DNA from: Cephalotus follicularis
Taxonomy: Eukaryota > Streptophyta > Magnoliopsida > Oxalidales > Cephalotaceae
Length of the DNA stretch: 64,000 nucleotides
Reading direction: 5' to 3'
Assembly (NCBI GenBank): GCA_001972305.1
Contig: BDDD01002390.1
Location: forward strand, 38,044 to 102,043
Shown here in pieces: positions 14,221-52,778 of this stretch. The notes below the pieces were generated by a model that worked only from the letters and a program-made list of their open reading frames with translations, had not been told where the DNA came from and made no database searches. How positions within the stretch are numbered: position 1 is the stretch's first letter; each line of letters begins with the position of its first letter. The position numbers and the translations under genes are program-made.

Positions 14221-14483
14221 CTAAGCCTCGCCAGTCACGGGATTGTCCTGAGTTCTTCAACCACTTTACAGGGCAATGTTTGGCATAAATATGTGTTGTT
14301 TTTAATGAGTTATTTGGGATATTTTTATGCTTGGAATAGACTACTTTGGTTGTGTTATGTTGATTTTCAGATATAAGTGCAAAAGGACAAAAGTGCAAGA
14401 ATACTACCCAAAGTTGTGCCAATTAGAGCTTGAAAGTGTAAAGAATGAAGAATTGACAAATTCAATAGAAATAGAGTAAAAGC

Positions 14484-14777
14484 GTCGACGTCTTTGGCTA
14501 AGGTTCGACGCCTTTTCTAGGTTTACAATAAACGCGTCGACGTCTTCGGCTAAGGATCGACGTCTTTTCTGGGAATTGCAACATACCTTCAAGATCTATG
14601 AGAAAGGGATCGACGTCTTTCATCAAAGGGATCGACGTCTCTGAGTGAAATCGACCTGTAACTTTTGGACCAAAACGCATCGATGCATTTCATCATAGGG
14701 ATCGATGTCTTTCAAGTGCATCCCAGCAAAACGCGATTTTTACAAAAAGACATCGACGTCTTCTGTTAGGGATCGAC
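14484..14777. repeat. Paired palindrome array in LTR T copy 1
   Basis: Core six-mers lie in pairs: 14484/14504, 14536/14556, 14609/14631, 14679/14701 and 14752/14772. Within-pair steps are 20, 20, 22, 22 and 20 bp. Cores are GTCGAC, TTCGAC, ATCGAC or ATCGAT, inside GACGTCGACGTC-like palindromes. The array ends about 95 bp before the TATA box. Confidence 0.85.
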
Positions 14778-14868
14778 GTCTTCCTCTGCAGCAGAAATAG
14801 AGAGTTAGATTTTTTGCCACATTTTGTAACTAGGATTGCTTTATTTCTATTTTTGATCAATTTTTTAG

Positions 14869-15318: not shown

Positions 15319-15904
15319 CCGTTGTTTATCAAGGTATGATCGTTCAATTAAATGGAATTGTTCAATACAATCTATGGTGAGTTTCTATACTCTAAAACCG
15401 TTTCGTGATTATATATTTTATTCACTTTTATTAGTTGTTTTGATTAGTTTTAAAATTGCATGCTTTATTTCTTGGTATTTCGAATTCAGTGTTTTAAATT
15501 ATCGAACTCTTAATTTCCTGTTTTGATTATTTATTTTATTTGGCATAATTAGGAGTACTTTTTGATAGTTTATTTCAAATTTGGTACACTTCGCCTATGT
15601 TGGTTAGATTACAACTAGTTTATCGTTTCCCTGCGTTCGACCCGTTACTGCATGATCCGTGCACTTGCGGCTATAAATTTTAAAACATTCTTTTTAACAG
15701 TGAAGGCATAAAAATGTGTTGTTTTTAATGAGTTATTTGTGATATTTTTATGCTTGGAATAGACTACTTTAGTTGTGTTATGTTTATTTTCAGATATAAG
15801 GGCAAAAGGACCAAAGTGTAAGAATACTACCCAAAGTTGTGCCAATTAGAGCTTGAAAGTGTAAAGAATGAAGAATTGACAAATTCGGCAGAAACAGAGT
15901 AAAA

Positions 15905-16180
15905 AGCATCGACGTCTTTGGCTAAGGATCGACGTCTTTTTTGGGTTTACAATAAACGCGTCGACGTCTTTGGCTAAGGATCGATGTCTTTTCTGGGAAT
16001 TACAACTTACCTTCAAGAGCTATGAGAAAGGGATCGACGTCTTTGTGCGAAATCAACCTGTAACTTTTGGACCAAAACGCATCGACGCCTTTCATCATAG
16101 GGATCGATGTCTTTCAAGCACATCTCAGGAAAACGCGATTTTTACCAAAAGACATCGACGTCTTCTGTTAGGGATCGACA
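15905..16180. repeat. Paired palindrome array in LTR T copy 2
   Basis: Same arrangement as copy 1, with one pair fewer: GTCGACGTCTTTGGCTAAGG-type pairs followed by GATCGACGTC-type sites. It lies upstream of the TATA box at 16271. Confidence 0.8.
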
Positions 16181-16277: not shown

Positions 16278-17119
16278 ACAACATATGGCCGGCCAAATTG
16301 ATATGGAGAGGCTGGTAGAAACCCTAATTTCTTTTATCAATTTAGTTTTGTTTCACAATGTTTAGTAGCTAAACTTTTCAAGGTTTTGGGAAAGAACAAA
16401 GCCTAAATTGTTATTGTTTCAATTCCATCAATAAAAATCCTTGAATATTTGATTTGTTCTTCAATATTTCTGCCATCGCACACACTTTGTCTGCCTGATT
16501 AAAATCCACAAACATCTTGTCGGTGAAGCTGAAAGTTGGTGAATAAATGGTGCTTAAATCAACGGAGTCTACTCATACAATTTGTCGCAACGAACACTCT
16601 TCGTATTTTCGTATAGACCTAGCATGTCTACTCATACGTCTTGCCATCGTTGCGGTACTTCGTATAAACCTAGCATGTCTACTCATATGTCTTGTCATCA
16701 CCGCCGCACTCCGTATCGACCTAGCTGTCGTTGTTTATCAAGGTTTGATCGTTCAATTAAATGTAATTGTTCAATACAATCTATGGTGAGTTTTATACCC
16801 TAAAACCGTTTCTTGATTATATATTTTCTTCACTTTTATTAGTTGTTTTGATTAGTTTTAAAATTGCATGCTTTATTTGTTAGTATTTCGAATTCAGTGT
16901 TTTTAATTATCGAACTCTTAATTTCCTATTTTGATTATTTATTTTATTTGGCATAATTAGGAGTAGTTTTCGATAGTTTATTTCAAATTTGGTATACTTC
17001 GCCTAGGTTGGATAGATCACAACTAGTTTATCGTTTCCCTGCGTTCGACCCGTTACTGCATGATCCGTGCACTTGCGGCTATAGATTGTAAAACATTCTT
17101 TTTAACAGTGAACAGGCAA

Positions 17120-17370
17120 TGAGCTGACGCTTTTCTCCAAAGCATCTCCACTTTAAGTCTCGTCCAGGTCAACCTCATGTACTTGTCTTCAAAGCGCTGA
17201 AGTTCACCTTTAGAGCGTCATTGGTTGCACTAAGCGTCGCCGCTTTCACTAAAGCGTCGGCGCTTAAATGACTTTGGCCTTAGCCCGTCGACGCTTCAAA
17301 GCATTCCTTCAACGGTTCTGCAGCCAACCTTAAAGCATCACCGCTTAGCTTCACACCGTCGGTGCTTTAG
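17120..17370. repeat. GTCGAC-type palindrome array in LTR O
   Basis: Degenerate AAGCGTCGACGCTT sites recur here, for example near 17235, 17260, 17285, 17335 and 17355. Many differ by one or two bases from the full palindrome. The array lies 350-600 bp from the presumed LTR start at about 17723. Confidence 0.7.
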
Positions 17371-19059
17371 GCATTTCCAGCCCAAAACAAAGCCAAGCAT
17401 GCAAAACACTTGCCACCCTCAACACTAACAACTAAGCATACAAAACATGACGAAAGCATGATACAACCTCTTAGAGCAAACAAATTTTCATTAAACAACA
17501 CTTTGATGAATTTGATGAAAATTCAGGTCATTACAAATCAGGTCATAAGTATTTTTGAGCCCATATTCCATTTTGGCTCCCGTAGCATGAAATTCCACTC
17601 AAGGCCCAAAAGCCATTTCTACCCCCATCCAATAACAATACATTTGTAAGCCCGAAATACCGTCCCTTAAAATACTGTATATTTATTCATTCAATTTTAT
17701 TTACAAAAATTTCTGGGTATTACTGTAACACCCCCGAAGGTGGGAGCCCTTACAGGTCATAATACAGAACACATCTAAACATGAACTCAAAGCATAATCT
17801 TATCTCTATTGAAAATACGTGGTGGTCTAAGACATAATCCAAAAAACATATCATAATCTGAAAACATAGTCTGAAAAACTTCATCATAATCCGAATCGAA
17901 AACCATAATCTGAAATCAAACACTATTCAAAAACCTGGCCCAAACATGACCATAACCCTATTGAAAACACAAACGGACCAATCTCCTAGATGATCCCCAG
18001 ACATAGGCGGAAAACTCTCATCACACCTTTCCTCCATGCTCCTGATCACCTGTCGCATGGAAAACAAAAACGCGACTGAGGAAACCTCAGTATGGATGAG
18101 GAATGTAAAACAGTAAATGGACATTTAAAAGATAACCCAAAGTATATGAACTTCAAAATCAGAAAATAAAACGATTAAATATTCTTTAATAAATAAAGCA
18201 GAATATTAAAATAAAGCAGTTATAAAATCTTCATAACCTTCCGAAAAGCACAGAACCAAAATTTTCATAACTTTATCTGATTTCATAATTCCATAACAGA
18301 GATCTGATATACATATATATAAGTGCAAGGGGTTCGCGAGGCCCACATGCTCTGACGGAAAAACATGTACGGCACTACACAATCAATCACAAATCTGAAT
18401 CTGATAATAACTAGAGTTGACTCATACGCCTCAAAAGTATCCATACCCTACCCTCAGGATATATATATTGAGAGACGTCGTAGACCGATCACACAGCCAC
18501 GGTAGGTGTCATGTCCTCCGTGCCAAAGAACATTCCTATGAGACCTCATAGGTAAGCTTTTCTCTGTATGTTATTATGCAAAAAATATCGTTTTGTTCTA
18601 AAACAATTTAAAACATAAATAGATTTTCAAAACAATTTTTGAACATATCTGAAATCAAAACCTTATTCGCAACTGAAATTAACATACTTCCGAAAGTGGA
18701 AGCCATGTCCATTTAACATATTTTTCGATAGTGAAAACTATGTTCGTTTAACATATTTTCGATAGTGAAAATCATGCACAAATTATAAAATCAGTAATAT
18801 TAACCATAGTAATAAAACATATTTTACTCAAAATAAAACCGAATATCCAACAACGAAAAATCCATTTCGATAAAAACAGAGAATAGCCAAGAATAAGAAA
18901 TATCTGTACGTTAGCTTATCGAAAACTAAACAAATCTGAATACAGAACAAAAGCACAGTAGGAGTATCCTAACCCCGCCAAAGATGATATCAAGACCTCG
19001 ACATTAACGCCCAAACATCACATAACATAAAAATGCAATTATCAAAAACTGCCAGAGAT

Positions 19060-19330
19060 AGCATCGACGTTATGGACCCAAAGCGTCGACGTGCATGTCA
19101 AAAGAGATGGCGCTTAACATAGTCGTCGACTGTTTTGACGCAGCAATAACCAAGGTATAAAACAAAGCGTCGAAGAACAATACAGCAAAACACGATATAA
19201 GCGTCGAAGTTTAACTAAAAGCGTCGACGTTTAAGCCATAAGCGTCGACGGATAAACAAAACAGTCGACACTTAGACACATGCATGGCGTTTAAAAACAG
19301 GTTTTACACACACAGGCATTGACGCTTAAC
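19060..19330. repeat. Second palindrome array of LTR F
   Basis: Core sites at 19203, 19223, 19244 and 19264 are spaced 20, 21 and 20 bp. Further degenerate GCATCGACG, GCGTCGACG and CATTGACGC sites extend from about 19060 to 19330. Distance from the LTR start (20175, minus strand) is about 0.85-1.1 kb. Confidence 0.8.
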
Positions 19331-19914: not shown

Positions 19915-20065
19915 TCGATGTTACAACAAAGAGTTGACGCTTACTCCCTTCTCACAAAGTGTCGACGTCAAAAATGAGGCATCGACGTTTTCAATACTAT
20001 GAACAAAACCACAAAACCACAACGCTAAGGCGTCGACGCTTAGAACAAAGGTGTCGATGCTTAAT
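19915..20065. repeat. First palindrome array of LTR F
   Basis: Sites such as AAGCGTCGATG, AGTTGACGC, GTGTCGACGTC, GCATCGACG, GGCGTCGACGCTT and GGTGTCGATGC recur about 105-255 bp from the LTR start. Confidence 0.75.
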
Positions 20066-21982: not shown

Positions 21983-23842
21983 TATCACGCCCCAAACTGC
22001 GAGAGTAAACCCCCACGACCCAATGCGTGAGATACCGTCCGCTTAATCCATTCATATCAAAAGTGCTATACATTTAAAACTTTAAATCAGAGTCGTGCAA
22101 GCGGAATAGTCAATTAAAATAAAAGCTAACTCTTAAAATCTCCCAAAAATCAGGCATGATATATTCGTTTATCAAACTATATACCCCTGTAAAGAAAACA
22201 CAGTTTATATCTTTGGCCCAAGCCCTCAGCAAACCACACCTAAAACAAAATCATATCATTCTAATACCTCAAGTGATGGGCCTTTCCCTGTCTGATACAT
22301 CAACACTCATAACATAAGCACTACCGCATGTCGGCAGGTCGATAGCTAAATAAAACTGTCATACCCAATTTTCAGGAACACACATAAAGCGGTAAGCGCA
22401 ATTTACATTAAGATTCAGCTTAACCAAATACCATCAAATTTTAAACTTTTCAAACAAGATATCAGTTGCGTAAGCATTAAAACTCATAAGCTGAAAAATA
22501 AGTAACGTGCATCCCATACTGCACATTACCAATACATGTCTGTCATAGTTAAGAGCCCACAAAATGGAGCGTGATCCAAATACATTATCCAGTAAAATCA
22601 TAATACAATACACAACACCCAAAGGGACATAACCCCTAGTAAAAACATTATTAAAACTTGTACTTCATCCATGCTAACTCCCAAAGCCGGTCCACTGCAT
22701 CAATCTGTAAAGTAGGGGGTTAGCCTTTGTCCTCACTCGGCTAAGTCATAAAAGTAGTTTGGGATCAACATTGAATGCATGTCGTGAAATGTATGCGTAG
22801 ATGATGAAGTGCAGTAGAAAATACCAGTTTATGTATATGAAAATATATAAAAGTTTAAGAGTATAGTAAAATAACAGTAGGGATATATGTGTGAAAATAT
22901 ATGTATATAATAACAGTACAGTAGTAACCCAGCCAGGGCTACATCAACAGACACAACAGTGTCCAAAAAAGGACCAGTAAACAGTATACTATGTCCACAA
23001 ACGGACTAACAAACAGGGAGGCAGTATATGCAACACTGCCAACTCCTGGCCCCACGTTGCACTCCCACTTTCGATCCCTCCTCCAGGCAACCAAGCAAGA
23101 CAACAGTACAGTACAGTGAGTTGCTCAGCGAACTCCTGGCTCCTAGGTCAACCCTGTCACTAGCCAACGCTGGCAGTCCCCACCATGCAACTAGTTGCTT
23201 AAGCACAAAGACATAAAATTCACAGAGCAGACATAGTGAATAATCACAGTAACAATGCAGTAAACAGTACAGCAATGATCGTTAGATCAACAACAGGCAG
23301 TTCATTTTAAAATATTTTTGATAGTTGTAAACATTTGAAATATGTATTTCCAATAAATAGAAAATACTTTAAACAGTTTCAGTAGTGGAAATAGCTTCCC
23401 AGTATGTTCGAAAATATAACAATACTTATTTTATATTTTCGTACTCAAACATAGCAGTTTTCAAACTCATGTGTGTTTCTAATTTAATATAACAATTTAG
23501 AAATCATAATAGTTCATAAATGGTCATTAAACAGGCAGCAAACAATACATATGCAATGCATACAAATGCTTAAATGCACCCTAACAGGAGTCGGGATCGT
23601 TTCGTATCATTAAGTAAGAAAACTTGCAAACAGTACAAGAAGGCGTCAATGTCTATCATTAGGCGTCGATGTCTTTGTCCCGTAAGCGTCGACGCTCAAG
23701 TCCTTGGCGTCAGCGCTTTCCACTGTTTCAAAAGCGTCGATGTCAAATTTATACGCATCGATGCTCGAGGTATGGAACCTTAAACTCCAGCGTATTGGTT
23801 AAGGCGTCGATGCGTTAAGGTAGGAACCTTAGGCGTCGACGT
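21983..23842 (-). repeat. 5' LTR of element G, inner segment
   Basis: It carries the shared R/U5 block at 22691-22747, a GCCAACTCCTGGCCCC block near 23036 and the inner part of a palindrome array (23640-23842). It is interrupted at 23842 by element H; the LTR resumes at 33244. Confidence 0.75.
23640..23842. repeat. Palindrome array in LTR G, inner part
   Basis: Sites GCGTCAATG, GCGTCGATG, GCGTCGACGC and GCGTCAGCGC run in steps of about 20, 23 and 21 bp. A further pair, GCGTCGATG/GCATCGATG, is 21 bp apart. The last site, GTCGAC at 23835, overlaps the target site of element H. Confidence 0.8.
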
Positions 23843-25901
23843 TGTAATAACCGCAAATTCAATTCGTGTACAGTGTAATATTGATTAATAAAATGTGCAC
23901 TCATTTGAATTTAATGTCCAATTATTATAAAAATTGTGATTGGTAATTGCTTTGGATGAATGGATATACAATTGGTGAAGTATCAAATTTAGGAAACCCT
24001 AAAACAGCCATCGACAGCCGACTGTCACAGGGGAACAGTTGACTATCTGAGGTGAGAGTTGGCAGTCGACTGCCTGTTGAAGACAGTCGACTAGAATGGT
24101 GCAGATTAGGCGCCTGGCAGACGCAGAGATAGTGATGCCAAGTGTTCTAAAGGTGGCATGCATGGGAAATACGTGTCACCAGCTGCCAAAACATGCAAGG
24201 GGAGTGCCTTGCATGTCCTCTATTCCCTCTGCAAGGATTGCAGACCTGCAACCTGCAAAATTGAAGAGAAAAGGTAAGAAAGAGATGCATGTGAGAGAGA
24301 GAAGGAAATGAGAGAAGAGTGAGTAATGAGCCTGGCCAATTCTAAAGCTCTAGACCTTTATATCAGCTGTCCAGGAGCTGAATGTGTGTTAGAAAACACT
24401 GAGAATCGATGAGGAATTGCTGGAAATCATTGGAGCTTGCATTTGAGGATTTAGAGAACTCAAACAAGGAGACTTGGAAGCTTTGGACTTCTCCTGGTAA
24501 GTTTCCAATTCGAAGCCACTTTAATGTAGTGATAGTGTGACCAGGAAGTTTCTTAAGACTTTCTCTTAATATGGATAAAGATTAGCATCTGCTAGAATTA
24601 AAATGGAAAGTAGCATATGGTTCAAGAAAATGGACATAAAGCTTAGATGATTTAACAACTCTAATTCGAGTTATAAATGTTGTTAGTTGTTAAGAAATGT
24701 ACATTGATTCTCTTAAGTATATATAAACCTTCTGTCCATATCAAGGGAGCCGAAATTGAATGATAGTTGACAAGGAGTTAAAAGAGGAAGTTGTAAAATG
24801 GAAGTTAAGACTTAAGGATTTGGTAATAAGCTACTGTTGAAGTAGTAATTGTAACTGTTAATTAGAAACCTATTGGTACTAATGCATGTGTCTGTAAACA
24901 TGCATGCACTGTATAGATTACACACTACTGGAATCAAAGAAGTGATTGGTGAAAGAGGCTTGGAAACTCAAAGAGAAAGATCATTTCAATTGATCTTGGG
25001 ATAAGCTATTGAGGTAGGGGTAATGATATATTCTGGAAGATATGAGTATGCATATTATGTATGTTTATTTTCTTCTTGATTGCTATATATGTAATATTAC
25101 TATTGAACTGAAATGATTGAATTGATTGTCTTTGTTATTGCCGATCAGTCGAGTGATGGAAGGTGTCACTGGCTAACGGAGGTGGTCCTATGTGCCAGGA
25201 GTTGGCTAGAGTACACACCCAAACTTATCTGCATTGCAGATCTTATTGTTAAACTTCCCGCTAATGCTGGTAGTATATGTTACCTTATCTATCATCTTCG
25301 GAGTGTAGGTTGATAGATCGGTGGTGCACAGTTGGTGCTAGGAGTTAGCGACATGTGATACCCAAACCACTGTATGAATTGATTGTACCCTTGTGCGGTA
25401 TTCTTGCATATGTATTGTTTATGACCACTTGGCATGATTGCTTATATATTGGCATATTTAAATGTTACTTTAAATATAAACTGTCATACATGTTGCATTC
25501 ATATATTCCTTAGCATGCATTATCTTCCTACTTAACCAAGTGAGGACAACGGCAAATCCCTACAATTTCAGATTAAGCGAAGACTTGGAGATTGCTGCTG
25601 AAGCTTGGAGAGCTTCTATTTGTCAAATTAAGGTTGTTATTTATGATGTTGTGTTGTAATTTGTAATGAACGGTTCATACCCCGTATGGTAGTATTTTCC
25701 TTATGTTAAGGATAATTATTGGATTATGCCTGCACGTAGTATGGGATACGTGCAGATGACTTGTATTTATATTTCGGCTTACTGAATGCTTTCGAAAATT
25801 TATTTATGAATTATTAATTGGAATGCTGGAATATTATTATGCTTATATCTGATATCACCATATATGCTTGTCCAACGTAAATGAAATAACGGGGTGTGAC
25901 A
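23843..25901 (+). repeat. 5' LTR of element H
   Basis: Starts TGTAATAACCGC and ends GGGGTGTGACA. The first palindrome array is at 24010-24091, a GGTAAGT donor-like site at 24496, a GAGGTAGGGG block at 25011 and the R/U5 block at 25531-25575. The second array seen in the 3' LTR is not present in this copy. Confidence 0.9.
24010..24091. repeat. CAGTCGACTG-type array, 5' LTR of H
   Basis: Core sites start at 24017 (GCCGAC), 24038 (GTTGAC), 24065 (GTCGAC) and 24086 (GTCGAC). Steps are 21, 27 and 21 bp. Confidence 0.85.
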
Positions 25902-30634: not shown

Positions 30635-33238
30635 TGTAATACCCGCAAATTCAATTCATGTACATTGTAATATTGATTAATAAAATGTGCACTCATTCGA
30701 ATTTAATATCCAATTATTATAAATATTGTGATTGGTAATTGCTTTGGATGAATGGATGTACAATTGGTGAAATATCAAAATTAGGAAACCCTAAAATAGC
30801 CATCTACAGCCGACTGTCACAGGGGAACAGTCGACTGTCTGAGGCGAGAGTTGGCAGTCGACTGCCTGTTGAAGATAGTCGACTGGAATTGGGCAGAATA
30901 GGCGCCTGGCAGACGCAGAGACAGTGATGCCAAGTGTTCTAAAGGTGGCATGCATGGGAAATACGTGTCACCAGTTGCCATAACATGCAAGGGGAGTGCC
31001 TTGCATGTCCTCTATTCCCTCTGCAAGGATTGCAGACCTGCAACCTGCAAAATTGAAGAGAAAAGGTAAGAAAGAGATGCATGTGAGAGAGAGAAGGATA
31101 TGAGATAAGAGTGAGTAATGAGCCTGGTGAATTCTAAAGCTCCAGACCTTTATATCAGCTGTCCAGGAGCTGCATGTGTGCTAGAAAACACTGAGAATCG
31201 AGGAGGAATTGCTGGAAATCATTGGAGCTTGCATTTGATGATTTAGAGAACTCAAAGAAGGAGACTTGGAAGCTTTGGACTTCTCCGGGTAAGTTTCCAA
31301 TTCGAAGCCACTGTTAATGTAGTGATAGTGTGACTAGGAAGTTGCTTAATACTTTATGTTAATATGGATAAAGATTAGCATCAGCTAGAATTAAAATGGA
31401 AAGTAGCATATGGTTCAAGAAAATGGACATGAAGCTTAGAGGATTTAACAACTCTAACTCGAGTTATAGATGTTGTTAGTTGTTAAGAAATGTACATTGA
31501 TTCTCTTAAGTATATATAAACGTTCTGTCCTCATCAAGGGAGCCGGAATTGAATGATAGTTGACAAGGAGTTAAAAGAGGAAGTTGTAAAATGGAAGTTA
31601 ATACTTAAGGATTTGGTAATAAGCTACTGTTGAAGTAGTAATTGTAACTGTTAATTAGAAACATACTGGTACTAATGCATGTGTCTGTAAACATGCATGC
31701 ACTGTATAGATTATACACTACTGGAATCAAAGAAGTGATTGGTGAAAGAGGCTTGGAAACTCCAAGAGAAAGATCATTTCAATTGATCTTGGGATAAGCT
31801 ATTGAGGTAGGGGTAATCATATATTCTGGAAGATATGAGTATGCATATTATGTATGTTTATTTTCTTCTTGATTGCATGCATTGATTGGATTGGTATTAG
31901 ATTATGAAATAGATAACCTGCTACTGCCTGCATTTCTGGGCAGAAGCAGTCGACTGTTCTTCATGGCAGTCGACTGCTCAACATATTTAGTCGACTGTTA
32001 AGTAAACACAGTCGACTACTCAATCCAAACAGCCGACTGTTCTTGAGAAGCAGTCGACTGTCCTGGGTAAAAATGTATAATATTGACTGAATTGCTACTG
32101 TTTGAAATGTTGTTATTGTATATGCTACCATTATATTAGTATATACTGTTTTGGTGTTATTTAACACCACAACCACTTATATTTCAATGATGGAACCAAT
32201 TAAGTGCTATATGCACAATTTATGATAACAACTATCATTTCAAATGAAAACTATTGTTTAAAAGGAACTACTGATTTTCCTCCTATGTGAGGTACCTACT
32301 GTTTTGTTTCCCAAACTGGAAACCACAACTGTATTGATATCGTTTTCCTCTTATGAGATGTACGATCACTGAATTGTTATATGTTTCTAAAGAAAACGCT
32401 TTGATATTGCATATTATATATATATGTAATCTTACTATTGAACTGAAATGAATGAATTGATTGTCTTTGTTATTGCCGATTAGTCGAGTGATGGCAGGTG
32501 TCACTGGCTAACGGAGGTGGTCCTATGTGCCAGGAGTTGGCTGGAGTACACACCCAAACTTATCTGCATTGCAGATCTTATTGTTAAACTGCCCGCTAAT
32601 GCCAGTAGTAAATGTTACCTTATCTATCATCTTCGGAGTGTAGGGTGATAGATAGGTGGTGCACAGTTGGTGCTAGGAGTTAGCGGCATGTGACGCCCAA
32701 ACCACTGTATGAATTGATTGTACCCTTGTACGGTATTCTTGCATATGTATTGTTTATGGCCACTTGGCATGATTGCTTATATATTGGCAAATTTAAATGT
32801 TACTTTAAATATAAACTGTCATACATGTTGCATTCATATATTCCTTAGAATGCATTATCTTCCTACTTAGTCAAGTGAGGACAACGGCTAACCCCTATAA
32901 TTTCAGATTAAGCGAAGACTTGGAGATTGCTACTGAAGCTTGGAGTGCTTCTATTTGTCAAATTAAGGTTGTTATTTATGATGTTGTGTTGTAATTTGTA
33001 ATGAATGGTTCATACCCCGTATGGTAGTATTTTCCTTATGTTAAGGATAATTATTGGATTATTCCTGCACGTAGTATGGGATGCGTGCGGATGACTTGGA
33101 TTTATATTCCGGCTTACTGAATGCTTCTGCAAATTTATTTATGAATTATCAATTGGAATGCTGGAATATTATTATGCTTATTTCTGATATCACCATATAT
33201 GCGTGTCCAATGTAAGTTGTGAAAAACGGGGTGTGACA
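30635..33238 (+). repeat. 3' LTR of element H
   Basis: It carries both palindrome arrays (about 30810-30890 and 31949-32058), the donor-like sites and the R/U5 block (32867-32910), and ends GGGGTGTGACA next to the GACGT duplication. Confidence 0.9.
31949..32058. repeat. Six-site CAGTCGACTG array phased at 21 bp (H, second array)
   Basis: Core six-mers start at 31949, 31969, 31990, 32011, 32032 and 32053, giving steps of 20, 21, 21, 21 and 21 bp. Five are GTCGAC and one is GCCGAC. The linkers between sites are unrelated to each other, so this is not a freshly expanded tandem repeat. Confidence 0.95.
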
Positions 33239-33243
33239 GACGT

Positions 33244-34489
33244 ATAATACGTCAGTATCCATGCAGATAACCCAAAGGCGTCAATGTTTACCAAAGGCGT
33301 CGACGTGTTTCGAGCACCAGTCGTCTTCTTCCTCGTGACGTGACAAACAGTAACCAACACAGTCCATATACATGCAAGACAACATGTAATCAAGCCAGAA
33401 AACCAACATGCAGATACATATCACATACCCAGCATAACATGGCATTGATCCAGTGATCAAAAACAGTTCAATAACCATGGAAACTATGCATAAAAATCAT
33501 TCTCCATGCATGAATATTAAGCTCAAAATTACGATTATGGCTTCCCCTACCATTTTGTTCCAAGTCAGGAACTAGAAAGTCCACCTCTTTAAGTCCTAGA
33601 ACTGGCCACAATAGCTCCAAGGTTCGTCCACTGTTGCAATCCCACGAGCTCCAAGTTCCAGGCTCCAACCAAGTTCAACGATGGAGGTGTTCACACTCTC
33701 TCTCTAACTCATCCACTCATTGATTGCTTAGCTCCTCTCCTCTCAGTGTTTCTCTTTTTCTTCTCTAAGTCCATTTCAGGGAGAACAAGAACTTTTAAGT
33801 AGATTTCATTTTGTTTCCATCTGCCTAAATGCCAAATCTCTCTCCTTCTTCACACCTAGTTGCATGGCACACCAGGTGTCTTCCCTTTGCTGCCAGGCCA
33901 GCTGTATGCAGTCCCATGCCTTCTCCTTTCTGTCATTCCAGTCCTGGCAGTGTAGGGAGCTAAATTGCATGCTCAAAACCTCAAGAACTGCATGTTAAGA
34001 TGCCTGGATAGTGCCCCAAATGTGTCCCCTTGCACCACGTTACTGTCTGTGCATAACGTGCCTAATATTTGGCTTTATGCATCGACGTTTTCTTTAGACG
34101 TCAAAGTCTTTTCCTTTTATTTTCACGCGAGGGAGTCGATGTTCTCGCCTGTATCGACGTGCATGTACATGCGCTTACGCGCGTCATTTGTCTCAAAGGT
34201 GTCGATGCGTTAAATAGGCATCGATGTGCATGTGCATGATTCACGTGCACATCATTGCTGCGTAGGTGTCGACGCTTTCCAAAAGGCGTTGACGCTTTTA
34301 GCCAAAAATTTTTCCGTTTGACCTAAAATGCACTCTGAAAATTTCTTTAACATTCCTCTTCCAAAAATGACATTATTAGAGTTTGCAAAACATCATCAAA
34401 GTCGGGAATTTCATTATTCTCATCAATTCTATGATAAGGTTACATCGGAATTTATATTATTACAAAGTATGAAATTCTCGGGCGTTACA
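33244..34489 (-). repeat. 5' LTR of element G, outer segment
   Basis: It ends GGCGTTACA at 34489, so the minus-strand LTR starts TGTAACGCCCGAGAATTTC. A second-array remnant lies at 33275-33310 and the first array at 34075-34300. A GGCTTCCCCTACC block at 33539 is the reverse complement of the donor-like block shared with K, L and M. Confidence 0.75.
34075..34300. repeat. First palindrome array in LTR G
   Basis: Sites such as GCATCGACG, AGACGTCAAAGTC, GAGTCGATG, GTATCGACG, GTGTCGATGCG, GCATCGATG, GTGTCGACGC and GCGTTGACGC lie about 190-410 bp from the LTR start at 34489. Confidence 0.75.
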
Positions 34490-36427: not shown

Positions 36428-36560
36428 CCAAAGCGTCGACGCCTATGCAGCAAAGATGCGCACATGAACCGTGCACATGCACGTCGACACCTGTTCATGA
36501 TGTCGACACCCTTTAGGCAAAACGCTATAAGCGTCGACGCCTACATGTAAACGTTGACGC
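36428..36560. repeat. First palindrome array of LTR K
   Basis: Sites are AAGCGTCGACGCC, CACGTCGACAC, ATGTCGACACC, AAGCGTCGACGCC and AACGTTGACGC, about 170-305 bp from the LTR start. Confidence 0.8.
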
Positions 36561-37334
36561 TTTGCGTCATGGTTCTGATATGCACAAACAGCAGATAGAC
36601 GTGTCGCATGGTGTCATGTTTGTGCCACACATCAGACGTCTTGGCAGGCACTTTAGGGACGTGTTATACATGCAATGTGGCGTCTAACTTGCCAGGAATG
36701 AAAAAGGAACTGAAGGGAAGGGACATGTGAACATGCATGAACTGGGAGAAGGAAGAAATAGACACCGGTTGCATCAGGTGTGCAAGAGAGAGGGAAATGA
36801 ACTGTTAGGTGCATGCAAGTGAAACAAAACAGGAAATGGCATAAAGTCGGTTCTCTCACCTCACTCTCATATGTTATTGAAAGCCAGAGAGTTTAGAGAC
36901 ACTGTGAGTGACAAAGGAGAGAAGAAAAATTAGAGAGAGGAAGCCCAACCACCATTGTTGAGCAAAGGAAGCTTGGAGCTTGGACATCGACTATTGGGAT
37001 GAACCAGGGATCCTTCAGGCCGAACCTTGGGACTAAAAGTGACTGATTGGATACTAAAATAGGTGGACTTTCGGCTTCTAACTCAAAGCTAGAGGTAGGG
37101 GAAGCCATAGTAGTATTTTGTGTTCAATAATTAGTGTTTGATCAGTGATGTTTATGCATAGATTGCATGGCCTGTTGAACTATTTTTAATCACTGAATGG
37201 ATGCCATTGTTTATTGGATGTGTAATCTATCATTACATGTCGGTTTCGTGGTTTTATTACATGTCTTGTGCATGTTTTTGGGCTTAAATTGTTACTGGTT
37301 TGTCATGTCGCGAGGAAGAAGATGACTGATGCTT

Positions 37335-37530
37335 GAAAACGTCTACGCCTTTGGAAAGCATCGACGCTTTGTACTGTGAACTGCATTTTATTTACTAAAT
37401 GCATTTTTAAACGTCGACGCTTATGGGAGAAGACATCGATGCCTAAGGTACAGAAAGTGCTGACGCCAAGGATCGAGCAACGACGCTTAGAGGACATAAG
37501 CGTCGACGCCCCAGGGAAAGACATCGACGC
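37335..37530. repeat. Second palindrome array of LTR K
   Basis: Cores sit in ACGTCTACGCC, GCATCGACGC, ACGTCGACGC, ACATCGATGC, GCTGACGCC, AACGACGC, GCGTCGACGCC and ACATCGACGC. Counted steps range from 19 to 24 bp around 21. Confidence 0.8.
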
Positions 37531-38244
37531 TTTAGAGTCCTGTTTGGATAGTTTTATGATTTTAATGCCCGATGATCTCGTTTCGTTTAGGATGCATTTG
37601 AGCATTTGTATGCATTGCACATGTACTGTTTACTTCCTATCTAATAACCGTTTATGAACCGTTATGACTTCTAAATCTTTATATTAATTTAGAAATGCAC
37701 ATATGAGTTTGAAAACTACTATGTTTGAGTACGAAAATATAAAATGGATATTGATATATTTTCGAACATACTGGGAAAGCAATTTCCACTACTGAAACTG
37801 TTTAAAGTATTTTCTATCTATTGGAAAGACATAGTTCAAATGTTTATGACTTTCGAAAATATTTTGAAATGAACTGCCTGTTATTGATCTAACGATCATT
37901 ACTGTACTGTTACTGCACTATTTACTGTGACTATTCATTGTTCATGCTTTGTGAATTTACTGTGTTTGTGCTTGAGCCGTACTACTTGTGTGGCTGGGAT
38001 TGCCAGCGTTGACTAGTGGAGGGGATGACCTAGGGGCCAAGAGTTGGCTGGGTAACTCACTGTACTTGTAACGCCCAAAATTTCCCTATGTTGTAATTTC
38101 ACAATGTAATGTGTTTTTATTGTGGAATTAATAAAAGAATGGATTACCTAGGCTTTGATGATGTTTTCCAAACTCTAATAATGTTGAATTTTGGAATAAA
38201 ATGTTAAAGGAATGTTTAAAGGGTAAAACGACGCTATTTTTGGA

Positions 38245-38400
38245 GAAACGTGTCGACGCCTTTCGAAACACATCGACGTCCTTGAAACGAAGGAGCGCAC
38301 GTAACTGCATGCACATGCACATCGATGCAGGCGAGGACGTCGAAGCCTCGTGTAAAAGGGGAAAGACGTTGACGTCTTCGAAGAATACGTCAATGCGTTT
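38245..38400. repeat. First palindrome array of LTR L
   Basis: Sites include GTGTCGACGCC, ACATCGACGTCC, ACATCGATGC, GACGTCGAAGCC, AGACGTTGACGTCTT and ACGTCAATGCG, 165-333 bp from the LTR start. Confidence 0.8.
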
Positions 38401-39149
38401 AACATTGAATGTCAGGAACGTTACTCTGCTGACAAATAACGTGCGAAGGGGAGATTTTTAGGGCCTTTTGCAGGTGCCTTGGGACATGGACGATACGTGT
38501 TGAGCATGCTAGCATGATGCCAGGCATGCAGGTGCTAGAATGGAAGGAAGGGCATGACACTTGGGTGTGCATGTAGGCTACGGTGCCACCTTCAACCCCT
38601 GCTCCTGCAAAAGAAGTGAGGCAGAGCTGGGAAAGAGAAAAGAATGGGAAATGGAGCCTGTGAGATGCATGCAACGGGCCAGAGAGGGAAGAGGGATGTG
38701 AGACTTGCATAAAATGCCTCCTCTCTACATCCCTGGTTCGGCTAAACACCAGTGTAAGAAAACAGAGAGTGAAAGAGGGCCATTATTGAACTTGGTTGGA
38801 GCTTGGAGCTTGGAACTGGTGGCTTGCAGCAACGGGAGGGACCTAGAGGCTGCCGTGACCAGTTTGGAACGCAAAGAGGTGGACTTTCCAGTTCCTAACG
38901 TGGAACAAAAGTTAGGGGAAGCCATAACTATAACCTTGAGATTTATATTCATGCATGGTCTATGGTTTTGGTGTATGAAATGCATGATTACTGAGTTGAT
39001 TTTGATCACTGGATTGATGCCATAACATGCTAGATATGTGATGTGTTTCTGCATATGGGTTTACTGCCTTGATTACATGTTAAATTGCATGTATATGGTT
39101 TGTTATGGCTACTGTTTGTTATGTCACGAGGAAGAAGACGACTGATACA

Positions 39150-39480
39150 CGAAACACGTCGATGCCTTTTTATGACATCGACGTCTTTTGATCAATTTCT
39201 GGGTTACTGATGTGAAACGGATCGACGTCTTTGGAAGGACATTGACGCCTTAGGATACCTGCCTGGGTTTTGACGTGTTACACGTCGACGTCTAAGGTTC
39301 CCACCTTAACACGTCGACGCTACAAGCAATACGCTGACGTTTCAAGGTTCCAGACCCTTAGCGTCGATGCGTATGATGGACATCGACGTCTTTAGACAGT
39401 AGAACACGCTGACACTAAGGACTTGGACATCGACGTTAATGGACAAAGGCATCGACGCCTTTTGATAGTCATCGACGTCT
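39150..39480. repeat. Second palindrome array of LTR L
   Basis: At least ten sites (ACGTCGATGCC, ACATCGACGTC, GGATCGACGTC, ACATTGACGCC, ACGTCGACGTC, ACGTCGACGC, GCGTCGATGCG and others) lie in steps of about 19-22 bp, or a wider gap. Confidence 0.8.
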
Positions 39481-39982
39481 TTTGGGTACTGTTTGAAAGT
39501 TTCTTCATCTAACGATATGTAACGATCGCGATTCCTGTTAGAGTGCATTTGAGCATTTGTATGCATTGCACATACACTGTTTACTGCCTGCTTGTGTACT
39601 GTTTATAAATTGTTTATGATTTCTAATGATGTGATATTTAGAAATGCATATGTGAACTCGGAATGTGCTATTTTGAGTATGGAAATATGTATTGGTTAAT
39701 AACGTATTTTCAAGCGAACTGATAAACAATTTACCCTACTGAAATGTTCAAAGGTATTCAACTACTGAAAAATACATTTTCAAATATTATTACTTTTAAA
39801 AATATTTGAAAATAGAACTGCCTGTTGTCGATCTGAACGATCACCACTGTACTGCTACTGCATTGTTTACTGCCTGAGTTCACTGTTTGCTCTGTGAATT
39901 GTTATGTGTTTGTGCTTGAGCCACTGGTTGCATGGCGGAGGCTGCCAGCGCCGGCTAGTGGTAGGGTTGACCTAGGGGCCAG

Positions 39983-42296
39983 TTATATCAGCTGATTGAA
40001 TGGTGTTGGAGTGTTAGAAAACACAGAGAGAAGAGAGGAATTAGTGGAGCTTGCATCGGATGACTTAGAGAACTCAAAAGGGGGGACTTTGAAGCTTTAG
40101 AATCTTGGTAAGTCCTTAATCCGAATTCTTTGTTATTTTGATGATTAAATGACTTGGAAAAATATTGTATATCTTCTGTTAATGGATTGGAATAACAATC
40201 TTTGGAATTGAAATGGAAAGTAACAATGAAATCAAGTGGAATTGGTGATATAGTCTCTAGAATGGATTATAATTGTTGTTAATGTTAGGATATGCTTAAT
40301 GACTCCTAAGTATGTATATACCTACTGTTGAAACATGCAAATCAGTAGATGGATTGAGTAAATTATTTGGAATATGGAGAGTGTTTTAAATGGAACTAGA
40401 GACTTAAGAGTTCTAGTAATTCTTGATGCAACTAGATAATAGTAATTGATTAGTATATATATACATACTGATTTCATGTATATATATCTTCTGTCAAAAC
40501 AAGTTAAGAACAATGAATCGAAGATTAATGATATTTGGCATAGAGTTCAAAGAAGGGAAGTGATAGAATGGTAAAGGAAAGTTAAAGACTTAAGTGGATT
40601 AATGATTAAACCACTGTATGAGTATTGAAACTTACTGATATTGATACATGTATTCATAAACGAACATGCTTAGATTGATTCTACTGGAAATTGAAAGAGT
40701 GATTGGTGAAAGTGACTTGGAACTCAAAGAGAAAATCATATTCAATTGATCTTGGGATAGCGATTTGAGGTAGGGGTAATGATATGTCATGGAAGATATG
40801 AGTATGCATATTATGTATGTTTATTTTCTGCATAATTACATGTATTGAATTGTTTGGGAATTGAATTAGCATTACATGACTTGTTATTTCTGCATTTTCT
40901 GGGCAGAGGCAGTCGACTGGCACCCAAAGCAGTCGACTACTCAACCCAACAGTTGACTGGTTCTTCATGGCAGCCGACTGTTCTGGGTAGAAAATTCATA
41001 CTTTGATTGAATTGTTACTGTTTGTTATTGTTATTGAATTGTATATGCTACCACCATCTAGTATATACTGTTTGATGTTATTTAACATCACTACTACTTG
41101 TATTACAATGATCGAACGAATTATGTACTATATGCACAATGCATGGTTTTAAACACAATTTTCAAGTGAGAACTCTTATTGCAAGAATTATTGATTTATG
41201 AAAGTGTTACCGAATGTGCTACTGTCACATTATTATAAACTGTTTTGGTGTCATTTATCACCACCACCACTGTATTTCAATGATTGAAACCAACTATGGA
41301 CTATGTATCCAATTTATGAAATCAAACTATCATTTTCAAGTGAATGATTATTGCCAAATAAACTACCGATTTTTCCTCCTATATGAGAGGTACTTACTGT
41401 TTTGTTTCCCAAATTGGAAACCATTATTTAAGTGATGTCGTTTTCCTCCAAAAAGAGGTACGATAAGTGAATTGTCAAAGTTTCTAAAGAAAACTACTTA
41501 TATTGTATACTATTGAAATATGTAATATTATTGAATTGAATTGATTGAATTGATTGTCTATGAGTGCCGTGGTTCAGTGGCGGAGGTTGTCATTGAATAC
41601 GGGATGTGATTCTGGGTGCCAGGAGTTGGCCAGAGTATCACCCCAGTGTTCTGCAATGCAGAAATTGATTGTTAAACTACCCGCTAACGCCGGTAGTAAG
41701 TGTTACCTTTTCTATCATCTTCAGAGCGTAGGGTGATAGTTAGGTGGTGCACAGACGGTGCTAGGAGTTAGCGACATGTGACACCCAAGTGAGTGTTGAA
41801 TTGATTGTACCCTTGTGCGGTATTCTTGCATATGGATTGTTTATGGCCACTTGGCATGATTGCTTATATATTGGCTCATTCAAATGTTATTTTGATATAA
41901 ACTGTCATACATGTTGCATTCATATACTCCTTATCATACATTATCATTCTACTTACCCAAGTGAGGACAACGACTAATCCCTACAATTTTAGATTAAGCA
42001 AGGACACTTGGAGATTGCGGCTGAAGCTTGGAGAGCTTCTTAATTTCGATTTAAGTTGTTCATGCCCTGTGTAGTATTGTATTTCCTTTTATGTGAAGAT
42101 AACTGTTGATTTTTTACCTGCACGTAGTATGGGATACGTGCGGATGTTTTTTTTATATATTCCGGCTTATCGAATGCTTCCGCAAAATTTTATTTATGAC
42201 TATTTGTTGAAATGCTGGAATATTATTTTATGCTTATTTCTGATATCACCACATATGCTGGTCCATTATACGTGAATGGAAATACAGGGTGTGACA
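39983..42296 (+). repeat. 5' LTR of element I (incomplete)
   Basis: From 39983 it matches the 3' LTR from about 46265 onward almost base for base. The second palindrome array is at 40912-40978, a GAGGTAGGGG block at 40767 and the R/U5 block at about 41950. It ends GGGTGTGACA. Confidence 0.85.
40912..40978. repeat. CAGTCGACTG array, 5' LTR of I
   Basis: Cores start at 40912 (GTCGAC), 40932 (GTCGAC), 40952 (GTTGAC) and 40973 (GCCGAC), in steps of 20, 20 and 21 bp. The 3' LTR repeats it at about 47195-47262. Confidence 0.9.
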
Positions 42297-45760: not shown

Positions 45761-48607
45761 TGTAATAACCACAACTTCAATTAATGTATATTGATCCAAT
45801 TTTGAAATAAAATATACATTTTAATTGAGTTATTTATCCAATTATAATGATTTCTATTATTGGTAATTGCTTGGGATGATTGAATGTGCAATTGGTGAAG
45901 TATCAAAGTTGGAAAACCCTAATCTAGCCCAAACAGCCGACTGTCACAGGGCAACAGTCGACTGTTTGCCACGTGAAGAAGGCAGTCGACTGCCCACTAA
46001 TTCCAGTCGACTGGTTTGCTCCAGGACAGAATCCTGGCATGTGCAGGGACAAGAATGACAGGTGGGGAATGGCACTTATGTCTCACCACTTGCCAGAACA
46101 TGCAAAAGTCAGTGTTTGCATGTTCTCTGCAGACAACCAATCACCAATTTGATTAATTAAGAGAGAAAGTGGAAGTGAGGGAGGCATGTGGTGGAAAGAA
46201 TGAAAGAAAAATGTGAGTGCATGTGAGTAGGTGACAAATCTGACGAATTCAGAGGCCCTTGAGAGTTATATCAGCTGATTGAATGGTGTTGGAGTGTTAG
46301 AAAACACAGAGAGAAGAGAGGAATTAGTGGAGCTTGCATTGGATGACTTAGAGAACTCAAAAGGGAGGACTTTGAAGCTTTAGAATCTTGGTAAGTCCTT
46401 AATCCGAATTCTTTGTTATTTTGATGATTAAATGACTTGGGAAAATATTGTATATCTTCTGTTAATGGATTGGAATAACAATATTTGGAATTGAAATGGA
46501 AAGTAACAATGAAATCAAGTGGAATTGGTGATATAGTCTCTAGAATGGATTATAATTGTTGTTAATGTTAGGATATGCTTAATGACTCCTAAGTATGTAT
46601 ATACCTACTGTTGAAACATGCAAATCAGTAGATGGATTGAGTAAATTATTTGGAATATGGAGAGTGTTTTAAATGGAACTAGAGACTTAAGAGTTCTAGT
46701 AATTCTTGATGCAACTAGATAATAGTAATTGATTAGTATATATATACATACTGATTTCATGTATATATATCTTCTGTCAAAACAAGTTAAGAACAATGAA
46801 TCGAAGATTAATGATATTTGGCATAGAGTTCAAAGAAGGGAAGTGATAGAATGGTAAAGGAAAGTTAAAGACTTAAGTGGATTATTGATTAAACCACTGT
46901 ATGAGTATTGAAACTTACTGATATTGATACATGTATTCATAAACGAACATGCTTAGATTGATTCTACTGGAAATTGAAAGAGTGATTGGTGAAAGTGACT
47001 TGGAACTCAAAGAGAAAATCATATTCAATTGATCTTGGGATAGCGATTTGAGGTAGGGGTAATGATATGTCATGGAAGATATGAGTATGCATATTATGTA
47101 TGTTTATTTTCTGCATAATTACATGTATTGAATTGTTTGGGAATTGAATTAACATTACATGACTTGATATTTCTGCATTTTCTGGGCAGAGGCAGTCGAC
47201 TGGCACCCAAAGCAGTCGACTACTCAACCCAACAGTAGACTGGTTCTTCATGGCAGCCGACTGTTCTGGGTAGAAAATTCATACTTTGATTGAATTGTTA
47301 CTGTTTGTTATTGTTATTGAATTGTATATGCTACCACCATCTAGTATATACTGTTTGATGTTATTTAACATCACTACTACTTGTATTACAATGATCGAAC
47401 GAATTATGTACTATATGCACAATGCATGGTTTTAAACACAATTTTCAAGTGAGAACTCTTATTGCAAGAATTATTGATTTATGAAAGTGTTACCGAATGT
47501 GCTACTGTCACATTATTATAAACTGTTTTGGTGTCATTTATCACCACCACCACTGTATTTCAATGATTGAAACCAACTATGGACTATGTATCCAATTTAT
47601 GAAATCAAACTATCATTTTCAAGTGAATGATTATTGCCAAATAAACTACCGATTTTTCCTCCTATATGAGAGGCACTTACTGTTTTGTTTCCCAAATTGG
47701 AAACCATTATTTAGGTGATGTCGTTTTCCTCCAAAAAGAGGTACGATAAGTGAATTGTCAAAGTTTCTAAAGAAAACTACTTATATTGTATACTATTGAA
47801 ATATGTAATATTATTGAATTGAATTGACTGTCTATGAATGCCGTGGTTCAATGGCGGAGGTTGTCATTGAATACGGCATGTGATTCTGGGTGCCAGGAGT
47901 TGGCAAGAGTATCACCCCAGTGTTCTGCAATGCAGAAATTGATTGTTAAACTACCCGCTAACGCCGGTAGTAAGTGTTACCTTTTCTATCATCTTCGAAG
48001 CGTAGGGTGATAGTTAGGTGGTGCACAGTCGGTGCTAGGAGTTAGCGACATGTGACACCCAAGTGAGTGTTGAATTGATAGTACCCTTGTGCGATATTCT
48101 TGCATATGGATTATTTATGGCCACTTGGCATGATTGCTTATATATTGGCTCATTCAAATGTTATTTTGATATAAACTGTCATACATGTTGCATTCATATA
48201 CTCCTTATCATACATTATCATTCTACTTACCCAAGTGAGGACAACGGCTAACCCCTACAATTTCAGATTAAGCAAGGACACTTGGAGATTGCGGCTGAAG
48301 CTTGGAGAGCTTCTTAATTTCGATTTAAGTTGATTATTATGATGTTGTATTGTAATTTGATATTGAACGGTTCATGCCCCGTGTAGTATTGTATTTCCTT
48401 TTATGCGAAGATAACTGTTGATTTTTTACCTGAACGTAGTATGGGATACGTGCGGATGTTTTTTTATATATTTCGGCTTATCGAATGCTTCCACAAAATT
48501 TTATTTATGACTATTAATTGAAATGCTTGAATATTATTTTATGCTTATTTCTGATATCACCACATATGCTGGTCCATTATACGTGAATGGAAATACGGGG
48601 TGTGACA
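45761..48607 (+). repeat. 3' LTR of element I
   Basis: It starts TGTAATAACCAC and ends GGGGTGTGACA. First array at about 45938-46012 (steps 21, 28 and 21 bp), GGTAAGT donor-like site near 46388, second array at about 47195-47262, R/U5 block at about 48226-48270. Confidence 0.9.
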
Positions 48608-50571: not shown

Positions 50572-51364
50572 ACTGTCGCCTGAGACCGCGTGTTTGGCGC
50601 CGAGTCTCGGCGAGTCACGGGCAGTGACGCGTAGGACTGTTGAATGTGTGGTGATTTTGGGTGGTGATCGGACCTGTTGAGGTCCAGCGAGTTGACTCAG
50701 TGAGTCATAACTCGCTGCCGGCCGTGGCGCGGCGTTTGGCGCCTATTCACTACGAGTTCTAAGCGGTTCTGTGTAGACCGTTCGATGTGGAATCTGTTTA
50801 TGGGTGTTTCATAAGCTGGATGAGTTGGCCGAAATCCGGTCGGCGTTTCGGCGACGACAATGTTTTATGTGTCGAGCATAACGGAAATGTGTTGTATGTG
50901 CAGTGTGTGAGCGTCATTTGGATTTGGTAGTGGAAAGGATCAATTAGCAAGAACTGGCTTCGGTTCAACGGTTTCTGGGTAAGGTTCGGCAATTGAACCT
51001 GCGGCTCAACTGTGCTGCTGCTACCGCGATTCCTAGCTTGGAATCAGAGGTAGGGGAAGCTATACATGCAAGTTTGAGTTCAATAATATTGTAATGCCAT
51101 TGATGAAATGCCTGGTTTGCGGATTGTGAATTGTGTGACTGTGATAGGGTTACTGTGAGTAGTTAACCTGTTATGCATATCATGTCGTAGAATGATTGTG
51201 GACTGTGGATTATGGATTGTGTGACAGTGTTAGGGGTTCTATGAATAGTTAATTTGTCATGCACATTGTGTTTTACAATGATTGTAGATCGGATTGCATT
51301 TGTTGTATGCTTGAACTCTATTGGTTTTGAGACGTGTTGAAGGAACCGTGTTTTGGTTCGCTTA

Positions 51365-51655
51365 ACCGTCGACGCTTAGGAAGGAAGCATCGATGTTATG
51401 GATTGTTACACGGAGAATCAGTCCTGATTCGCGATAAACGTCGATGCTTACAGAAAACGTCGACGCTATGATTCGTTGTATGTGAGAATGGACATGTGTA
51501 CCATTGACGCCTGAGGTTCCTACCTCAGAGCATCGACGCCAAAGGGATGAGACGTTGACGCATAAAGTTTCTGGTTGAAAGTGTTGACACTAAGAGTGCG
51601 GCGACGCTTAAGTGGCTGGGTTGAACATTAACGCATGTCTGGTACATGTTGACGC
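51365..51655. repeat. GCGTCGACGC-type array of LTR M
   Basis: Sites include CCGTCGACGC, GCATCGATG, ACGTCGATGC, ACGTCGACGC, CCATTGACGCC, GCATCGACGCC, ACGTTGACGC and GTGTTGACAC. Many depart by one or two bases from the full palindrome. Confidence 0.75.
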
Positions 51656-51752: not shown

Positions 51753-52565
51753 TGAGGGCAGCAATTCGTTACACCTTACAATTTCGTGATTGACCTCAAT
51801 CAGAAGATCTTGACCTCAACACCTTAGAGGATTCTCCTCTTTTACAAGTAATTTGTGAAAGTGTTTACAAGATAACCTTTCAAATAGGTTGATATGACTT
51901 ATACAGATCACAATATGAAACACTCAGAAAAACTCAAAAGATAGAGCTTAGAAGCCTTTTAGAACACTATAGAGCACTTTGACTTTTTACACACTAGAAT
52001 GCTTGAATTTGATATCTCTCTTGATGTTGTGTAATTATTGTTGAATCTTGATTAATTGTTCTTTTTCTTCTGAGGCTTGAGTCTTCCTTTTATAGGCAGA
52101 AAAGATTTGTAGCCGTTGCATAATTCATGGAAGCTTTTGATTTTAAAATGTGTTAGTGACACTTTGAATTTGTCTCTGCTGACATAAAGACGTCGATGTC
52201 TTTTGAAAGGCGTCGATGTCTTTGATAGTTGCTATCCGTTGCAAGTGTGTTTACTATCCGTTCCATGTTTCCCGGGTCAATTCATTTAAAGAGACGTCGA
52301 TGTCTTTTTAAAGGCGTCAATGTCTTTTCTGGGAATATGTCCAGGCATTTGAAGGTATGAGCATCACATCGACTTCTTCTATAGGGGTCGATGTCTTTTC
52401 TGGGAATTGCAGATAGGTCTAGAAAGGCGTCAATGTCAATGGAAAGGGATCGACTTCTTTTCATGGACCTTCACGAGAAAGGATCGATGTGATCAATCAA
52501 TTTTGACCTGTAACATTTGCACCTTAAGACGTCGATGTCTTCCTGATAGGGATCGATGTCTTTTG
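51753..52565 (-). repeat. Copia LTR Q, inner segment with TATA and palindrome array
   Basis: The left end is taken at TGAGGGCAGC, where similarity of LTR M to K and L stops; it may be off by a few bases. The array at 52190-52560 has GACGTCGATGTC-type sites (last pair 52531 and 52552, 21 bp apart). A minus-strand TATA box lies at 52088-52094. The LTR continues beyond element E at 61119-61385. Confidence 0.65.
52088..52094 (-). promoter_or_regulatory. TATA box in copia LTR Q
   Basis: On the minus strand this reads TATAAAA within CTGCCTATAAAAGG, about 100 bp downstream (minus sense) of the palindrome array. Confidence 0.6.
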
Positions 52566-52778
52566 TGTGATGACCCGAATTTCCAGTAAGGATATTAATT
52601 ATGGAAAGATGATTGCTATTGTGTAGTTGGCAAATATTTCAAGGGACCCGTAGTATGACCCTACGCTCTGGGAGTACGGGGGTTCCACTGCCCGGACAGC
52701 GGGCTGCGGTTCGGGGGGCAGCGCGCCCTGAAGAAAATTTAATTTGGCTAAGTGTTGAGAAGGAAAACTGTCTAAAGT

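Follow-up and report, generated by a model that had tools for sequence, protein, structure and literature searches.

Phased arrays of GTCGAC palindromes in retrotransposon long terminal repeats of Cephalotus follicularis

A 64,000-base stretch of Cephalotus follicularis DNA (contig BDDD01002390.1, positions 38,044 to 102,043; G+C 39.6% by base counts), here called the window, contains arrays of short palindromes with a GTCGAC core in the long terminal repeats (LTRs) of several retrotransposon families. The usual step between neighbouring palindromes is 20-21 bp, and these phased arrays are real and beyond chance. The carriers are designated H, I, E, T1, T2, T3, F, G and Q; for H, I and E, the 5' and 3' LTRs are written H5 and H3, and so on. 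The index array, which is the second array of the H 3' LTR (31943..32063, + strand), consists of six CAGTCGACTG-type sites. Their cores start at 31949, 31969, 31990, 32011, 32032 (GCCGAC) and 32053, with steps of 20, 21, 21, 21 and 21 bp, exactly as a first-pass annotation of this DNA had counted them. The coordinates it gave for E, F, I and Q are also correct, but several of those cores are one or two bases off GTCGAC (52779 GCCGAT, 61217 ATCGAT, 40952 GTTGAC and 40973 GCCGAC).

Spacing and symmetry of the sites

We compared the window with 500 dinucleotide shuffles of its whole length and 500 shuffles within 1-kb blocks. Exact GTCGAC was found 58 times, while the shuffle means were 6.4 and 5.9 and the maximum was 15. 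Ten pairs of exact cores lie 20-22 bp apart, and no shuffle gave more than one such pair. The first-pass annotation had predicted a peak at 20-22 bp for cores with up to one mismatch and a harmonic near 42 bp. Both appeared in the window: 50 pairs at 20-22 bp (shuffle means 1.3 and 1.4, maximum 6) and 20 pairs at 40-43 bp (means 1.7 and 1.8, maximum 8). Of the 64 palindromic hexamers, none was as strongly enriched at 19-22 bp, relative to its own background, as GTCGAC (6.95-fold, 58 pairs). After removal of second copies (H5, I5, E5 and G2), the counts at 19, 20, 21 and 22 bp were 8, 16, 19 and 4, respectively, and the other distances from 10 to 40 bp gave 0-6. A scan with site models, which were derived from the window itself and are thus not independent of it, found 120 sites with 53 neighbour steps of 18-23 bp, compared to 11, 8, and 2 sites and no such step in three Markov shuffles. 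Steps of 27-32, 47-53 and 66-73 bp are present as well. Strict helical phasing over a long range was therefore rejected; phase is kept between neighbours and not across a whole array.

The anatomy of a site was derived from 107 array sites, picked solely by the core and a neighbour 18-23 bp away, with 157 other near-GTCGAC sites as the comparison set. The two arms of the array sites are complementary at positions 4 to 7 with frequencies of 0.72, 0.49, 0.52 and 0.64, respectively, versus 0.35, 0.30, 0.29 and 0.31 in the other sites, and fall to about background from position 8 outward. Since this complementarity extends to position 7, each site can be described as a TCGA-centred palindrome about 14 bp long. 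Of the 107 array sites, 84 have an intact TCGA, as do 72 of the 157 others. Position 3 is less complementary in array sites (0.58 vs. 0.66) because ATCGAC and GTCGAT are common. Across 88 sites without second copies, arm symmetry was 0.577 as compared to 0.406 after the arms were shuffled among sites, a value reached by none of 5000 shuffles.

The family consensuses are CAGTCGACTG in H/I, AAgcGTCGAcGCTTT in E, CgTCGACGC in T, aCGTCGACgCTT in F, gATCGACGTCTT in G, and GACATCGAC in Q. H/I sites are shorter than E/F/T sites and keep the same step; C-type sites, which are merely 10-14 bp long, still follow each other at 20-21 bp. Thus, close packing alone does not set the spacing.

Carriers, position in the LTR and possible function

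Pfam matches to Ty3 gag, protease, reverse transcriptase and RNase H were found in H and I, and tblastn detected weaker Ty3-like pol or protease remnants in E and the T1 interior. The start of the Q LTR carries AAAAAGGGGGAGATTG, and its GGGGGAG-AT/TG junction fits the 5'-AT/TG-3' junction that the accessible text of PMC2829016 gives for Sireviruses. A search for Ty1 pol belonging to Q found none, and G is linked to Q solely by one 79% array match. We infer from these features that Q and G are Ty1/copia LTRs; the remaining carriers are Ty3 elements.

In all delimited carriers an array lies near the start of the LTR. Measured from the LTR start, the first array sets in at 176 bp in H, 177 in I, 215 or 236 in E, 199 in T1, 230 in T2, 187 in T3, 120 in F (putative), 211 in G and about 130 in Q. 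H3, I3, T1-T3 and F also have a second array, which begins at about 909 to 1436 bp. Ninety-eight of the 107 array sites fall within delimited LTR intervals, some of which were drawn with the arrays in view. In a cleaner comparison, 39 array sites were counted in the 14,921 bp of six LTR copies (H, I and E), as against none in 16,972 bp of internal sequence from five regions (those of H, I and E, and parts of S and R). The earlier claim that nearly all LTRs of the window carry such arrays was too strong. Positions 1-14,000, where LTR ends of two elements lie at about 2114 (+) and 9374 (-), have a single core pair with this spacing (3348/3371), which is outside delimited LTRs. LTR-like DNA of S, a Ty3 element on the reverse strand, contains different tandem arrays with a period of about 37 bp at 5281-5446 and 10641-10830, and the former includes the dyad ACATGGC..GCCATGT.

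The first arrays of E, H/I, G and Q are upstream of a TATA-like box. These boxes are at LTR positions 514 (H3), 745 (E3), 594 (G) and 743 (Q), about 95-320 bp past the last site of the first array. Splice-donor-like GGTAAG in a conserved context occurs about 140 bp past the TATA-like box in H/I (approximately 24480-24500 in H5) and slightly more than 90 bp past it in E (approximately 53300-53315 in E5). The second arrays of H3 (31949) and I3 (47195) start right after an acceptor-like TTTCTGGGCAG; they may therefore be part of a transcribed leader.

A cooperative protein of the dimer type is the simplest reading of the arrays. We infer that each palindrome would be occupied by a sequence-specific protein of the host, binding as a homodimer or pairwise and common to the Ty3 and Ty1/copia carriers. 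A step of about two helical turns would align adjacent dimers along one face of the helix and allow them to bind cooperatively, and the outcome would be activation of transcription rather than repression. We put about even weight on the proposal that the arrays are promoter-proximal cis-regulatory modules of this kind, with dyad sites for a dimeric host protein and cooperation between neighbours. The arms differ among families (CAGTCGACTG in H/I; AAAGCGTCGACGCTTT and ATCGACGTCTTT in E, F, T, G and Q), and these differences could reflect related factors of one family and not one factor.

In the first arrays of H3 and I3, the four palindromes are identical at 46 of 48 positions and the linkers at 18 of 33, with one gap (Fisher p = 9.6e-6); the flanks are identical at 47/59 and 30/50 positions. 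Sixteen further directed comparisons gave significantly better kept sites in five cases (T2b-T3b, T1bL-T2b and three of the four G-Q comparisons).

These comparisons also bear on whether the arrays are a by-product of tandem duplication, in which repeated copying of a palindrome unit about 20 bp (or 42-52 bp) long, followed by decay, left a functionless inherited period. The first-pass annotation had described the linkers as unrelated and had taken this to argue against simple tandem-repeat expansion. The linkers of I, E and Q are not significantly above shuffles, but those of the index array (mean linker identity 0.42 vs. 0.31 shuffled, p = 0.004) and F (0.62 vs. 0.45, p = 0.025) are; thus, linkers are partly related in two of the five arrays tested. 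Tandem Repeats Finder detected rows with a 20-bp period in five other array segments and one of period 52 in G, and none in the index array. Within the Q array, 85 bp occur twice with 86% identity, and the second-array linkers of H and I have common pieces in different order. Duplication thus helped to build the arrays. Against duplication as the whole explanation, the same step recurs at the same LTR position in families that differ in arms and site length, and the decay between H and I spared the palindromes relative to the linkers. A functionless period is unlikely in our judgment. Duplication may instead be the growth route of a selected array, so that the two readings are not exclusive, and we read the data as arrays that probably grew by duplication while palindromes and spacing were retained.

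The palindromes might act in RNA instead of DNA: within LTR transcripts they could form stem-loops, or duplexes between palindromes, that serve as small-RNA templates or dimer contacts. All nine folded array stretches had energies below the mean of dinucleotide shuffles, eight of them with z from -3.09 to -6.73, and small-RNA hot spots over maize LTR palindromes are reported in the available texts of PMC5311732 and PMC10760457. The G array reached just -1.41, however, and any palindrome array folds, so that these z-scores do not separate RNA and DNA models. Arm mismatches on the sense strand are more often pair-breaking A-C (85) than wobble G-U (41), a pattern unlike that of RNA pairing. When copies were left out, this bias was seen in T, F, G and Q; in H/I (6 and 7) and in E (3 and 4) it was absent, and the counts there are uninformative. 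Hairpins need no constant step of 20-21 bp, and transcription probably starts downstream of the first arrays. We consider a role of the palindromes in RNA improbable.

It is likewise doubtful that the arrays are CpG-containing epigenetic targets, read by a silencing or anti-silencing factor and governing methylation rather than acting as a classical enhancer (as VANC does on VANDAL): in its favour, they vary by family, as VANC target arrays do, and retain a central CpG; against it, VANC targets are family specific and the binder is encoded by the transposable element, and here one core is common to Ty3 and Ty1/copia-like LTRs and Pfam matches in the 20 scanned frames, which were not a full search for extra genes, were solely gag, protease, reverse transcriptase, RNase H and integrase-tail domains.

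Several observations weigh against the proposal of cooperatively bound regulatory modules. Within families, arm symmetry is barely above that of shuffles (0.588 vs. 0.550; 43 of 3000 reach it); this excess is slight, and the symmetry is therefore mostly a property of each family's motif. Sites were not significantly better conserved in 11 of the 16 further comparisons, including all six of T first arrays and both of E with its reverse-strand relative, and picking the sites by consensus in one sequence favours the sites. Duplication is visible in the linkers, the tandem rows and the Q duplicate, and the longer steps are out of helical phase. H3 has a second TATA-like box at 876, and no clear TATA box follows the first array in the T1, T2 or T3 LTRs. 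In H, I, T and F, the start site probably precedes the second arrays, which are found about 900-1500 bp into the LTR. No known plant factor has been matched to the sites, no motif library having been searched.

If the regulatory proposal is right, its history may be one of convergence. Several Ty3 lineages and Ty1/copia elements of the same genome could each have come independently to use a single host dimeric factor or factor family, building at the same place in the LTR an array of TCGA-centred palindromes phased at two turns. The result would be a module coded by its spacing and common to both superfamilies, of which the Sirevirus repeats would be one branch. We regard this history as possible but tentative.

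Relation to described systems

Palindrome arrays in LTRs upstream of the TATA box are known already, one of them with a GTCGAC core, and the first-pass annotation was wrong in kind in stating that no such array had been described. Bousios et al. (2010) published palindromic repeated motifs (RMs) in the LTRs of 13 Sirevirus elements, in the upper half and upstream of the TATA box (PMC2829016, text as accessible). There, 117 of 127 RM copies start 200-400 bp into the LTR, and a cis-regulatory role was proposed (PMC2829016). The RMs were absent from the other Ty1/copia elements compared, and "Sirevirus-specific" in that article is relative to those (PMC2829016). A CGG-CCG signature is present in all published RMs but that of Tnd-1 (PMC2829016). 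The Vitis motif CGGTCGACCG contains GTCGAC, as the window arrays do, and the Tnd-1 motif ACAATCGATTGT contains TCGA, as do the window sites (PMC2829016).

As far as the accessible description goes, Sirevirus RMs and the window arrays are alike in having several short palindromes per LTR upstream of the TATA box. The window sites have dyad symmetry, with arms exceeding shuffles to position 7, and single sites are often imperfect. The first arrays lie 120-236 bp from the LTR start with a TATA-like box downstream in H, E, G and Q; this arrangement is unclear in T and unproven in F. For the Sirevirus RM type, at least 8 copies per element and motifs that border CpG islands are expected. Array sites per LTR copy, which depend on the threshold, number 10 (H3), 8 (I3), 8 (T1), 8 (T2), 10 (T3), 12 (F), 6 and 7 (E), 6 (Q) and 13 over two copies (G).

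Unlike the Sirevirus RMs, the window arrays have mostly Ty3 carriers: H and I contain Ty3 pol domains and E and T1 Ty3-like remnants, whereas Sireviruses are Ty1/copia elements. The arms that flank TCGA in the family consensuses are CAG-CTG, GCG-CGC or GAC/GGA-GTC and not CGG-CCG, and one core is shared across several families. Second arrays in mid-LTR also set the window apart, as does the 20-21 bp neighbour step; spacing is not mentioned in the accessible part of PMC2829016. The Ty3 carriers, the core common across families and the 20-21 bp step look new and were not found described in the open literature.

A 2016 maize study of Sirevirus palindromes is cited in PMC5311732 and PMC10760457. 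According to the available parts of these two articles, the maize palindromes, like the window arrays, cluster in the regulatory part of the LTR; they form a structure and are small-RNA hot spots. They differ from the window arrays in their motif, CACCGGAC..GTCCGGTG, and, in the same parts of those articles, in having Ty1/copia carriers alone (PMC5311732, PMC10760457). VANC target motif arrays in VANDAL DNA transposons grew by tandem repeat formation (Hosaka et al. 2017; PMC5735166, accessible text). That system differs from the window in its DNA transposons, its binder encoded by the transposable element, and its non-palindromic YAGTATTAY motif (PMC5735166). Both are arrays of a short motif in the non-coding DNA of transposable elements; the VANC motif is bound by protein. 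Some plant LTRs also carry sites for stress factors, such as the heat elements of ONSEN, where a known host factor drives the LTR promoter. ONSEN-type LTRs are not known to have a palindrome array of the window kind.

In the open literature, no paper combined the terms palindromic, LTR retrotransposon and GTCGAC, which is weak evidence as subscription papers are mostly outside its coverage. When the site strings were searched as text, the matches listed were unrelated by title. Viral contigs scanned with a pol fragment of I gave no match, and neither did a pattern of two CAGTCGACTG sites in a related-sequence scan. A pattern of two CGTCGACG sites matched at least 120 stretches, which, given the composition of the pattern, are probably chance matches in phage-like contigs.

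If LTRs from the two superfamilies are read by one host factor through a common core and spacing, that factor would be a shared handle for switching on or recognising the retrotransposons of a genome. A feature called Sirevirus-specific within Ty1/copia would then extend to Ty3 elements. The arrays would also provide a family-independent U3 marker for LTR annotation, ready substrates for finding the protein, and a naturally occurring test case in plant promoters for cooperative binding in helical phase.

Catalogue of arrays and insertions

LTR boundaries were determined from self-comparison, primer sites and target duplications; tRNA-iMet-like primer sites were found in window elements. The H LTRs occupy 23843-25901 and 30635-33238, with the target duplication GACGT. 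The first array of H3 (30803..30889, +) has four sites with steps of 21, 27 and 21 bp, and that of H5 is at 24011..24097 (+). H5 has no second array and lacks about 540 bp of H3. The 3' LTR of I (45761-48607) carries a first array of four sites at 45930..46017 (+; steps 21, 28 and 21) and a second of four sites at 47189..47267 (+; steps 20, 20 and 21). The start of the I 5' LTR is truncated, and its second array is at 40906..40984 (+). The E LTRs (52566-55061 and 58515-61113, target duplication TTTTG) contain arrays at 52773..53000 (+), with AAAGCGTCGACGCTTT-type sites, and 58722..58949 (+).

T1 is a reverse-strand LTR split by H. Its first array is at 34075..34298 (-), and its second array is divided, with one portion left of the H insertion (23640..23846, -) and the remainder near 33301. 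T2 and T3 are forward copies, and T3 is nested in T2 with the target duplication GTACT. Their first arrays are at 36429..36563 and, as a pair, 38246..38282, and their second arrays at 37335..37533 and 39131..39481, respectively, all on the + strand. T3 (38067-39981 and 48608-49268) resembles a solo LTR nested in T2, and is itself split by I, whose 5' LTR is missing its first part. The LTR ends of F are not proven; in this putative LTR the first array is at 19927..20063 and the second at 19057..19274, both on the - strand.

G (14277-17114) consists of two LTR copies head to tail, 92.5% identical and with no internal domain, and has inserted into a relative of the E LTR on the reverse strand. 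Its ends and the apparent target duplication GGCAA were read by eye. Copy 1 has its array of ATCGACGTCTTT-type sites at 14478..14790 (+) and copy 2 at 15900..16165 (+); a degenerate array of the E relative (17117..17368, -) adjoins the insertion. A further A-type cluster at 51362..51610, with no strand assigned, is outside the assigned elements. Q is a reverse-strand LTR split by E, and the portions of its array left and right of that insertion are at 52185..52562 (-) and 61119..61270 (-), respectively.

We rejected the arrays as an integration hot spot: two of the five resolved insertions lie within 20 bp of a core (H and E, not G, T3 or I; p = 0.068). H (23838-23842 / 33239-33243) and E (52561-52565 / 61114-61118) are each inserted inside the array of another LTR, with a core 5 and 14 bp from the junction, respectively.
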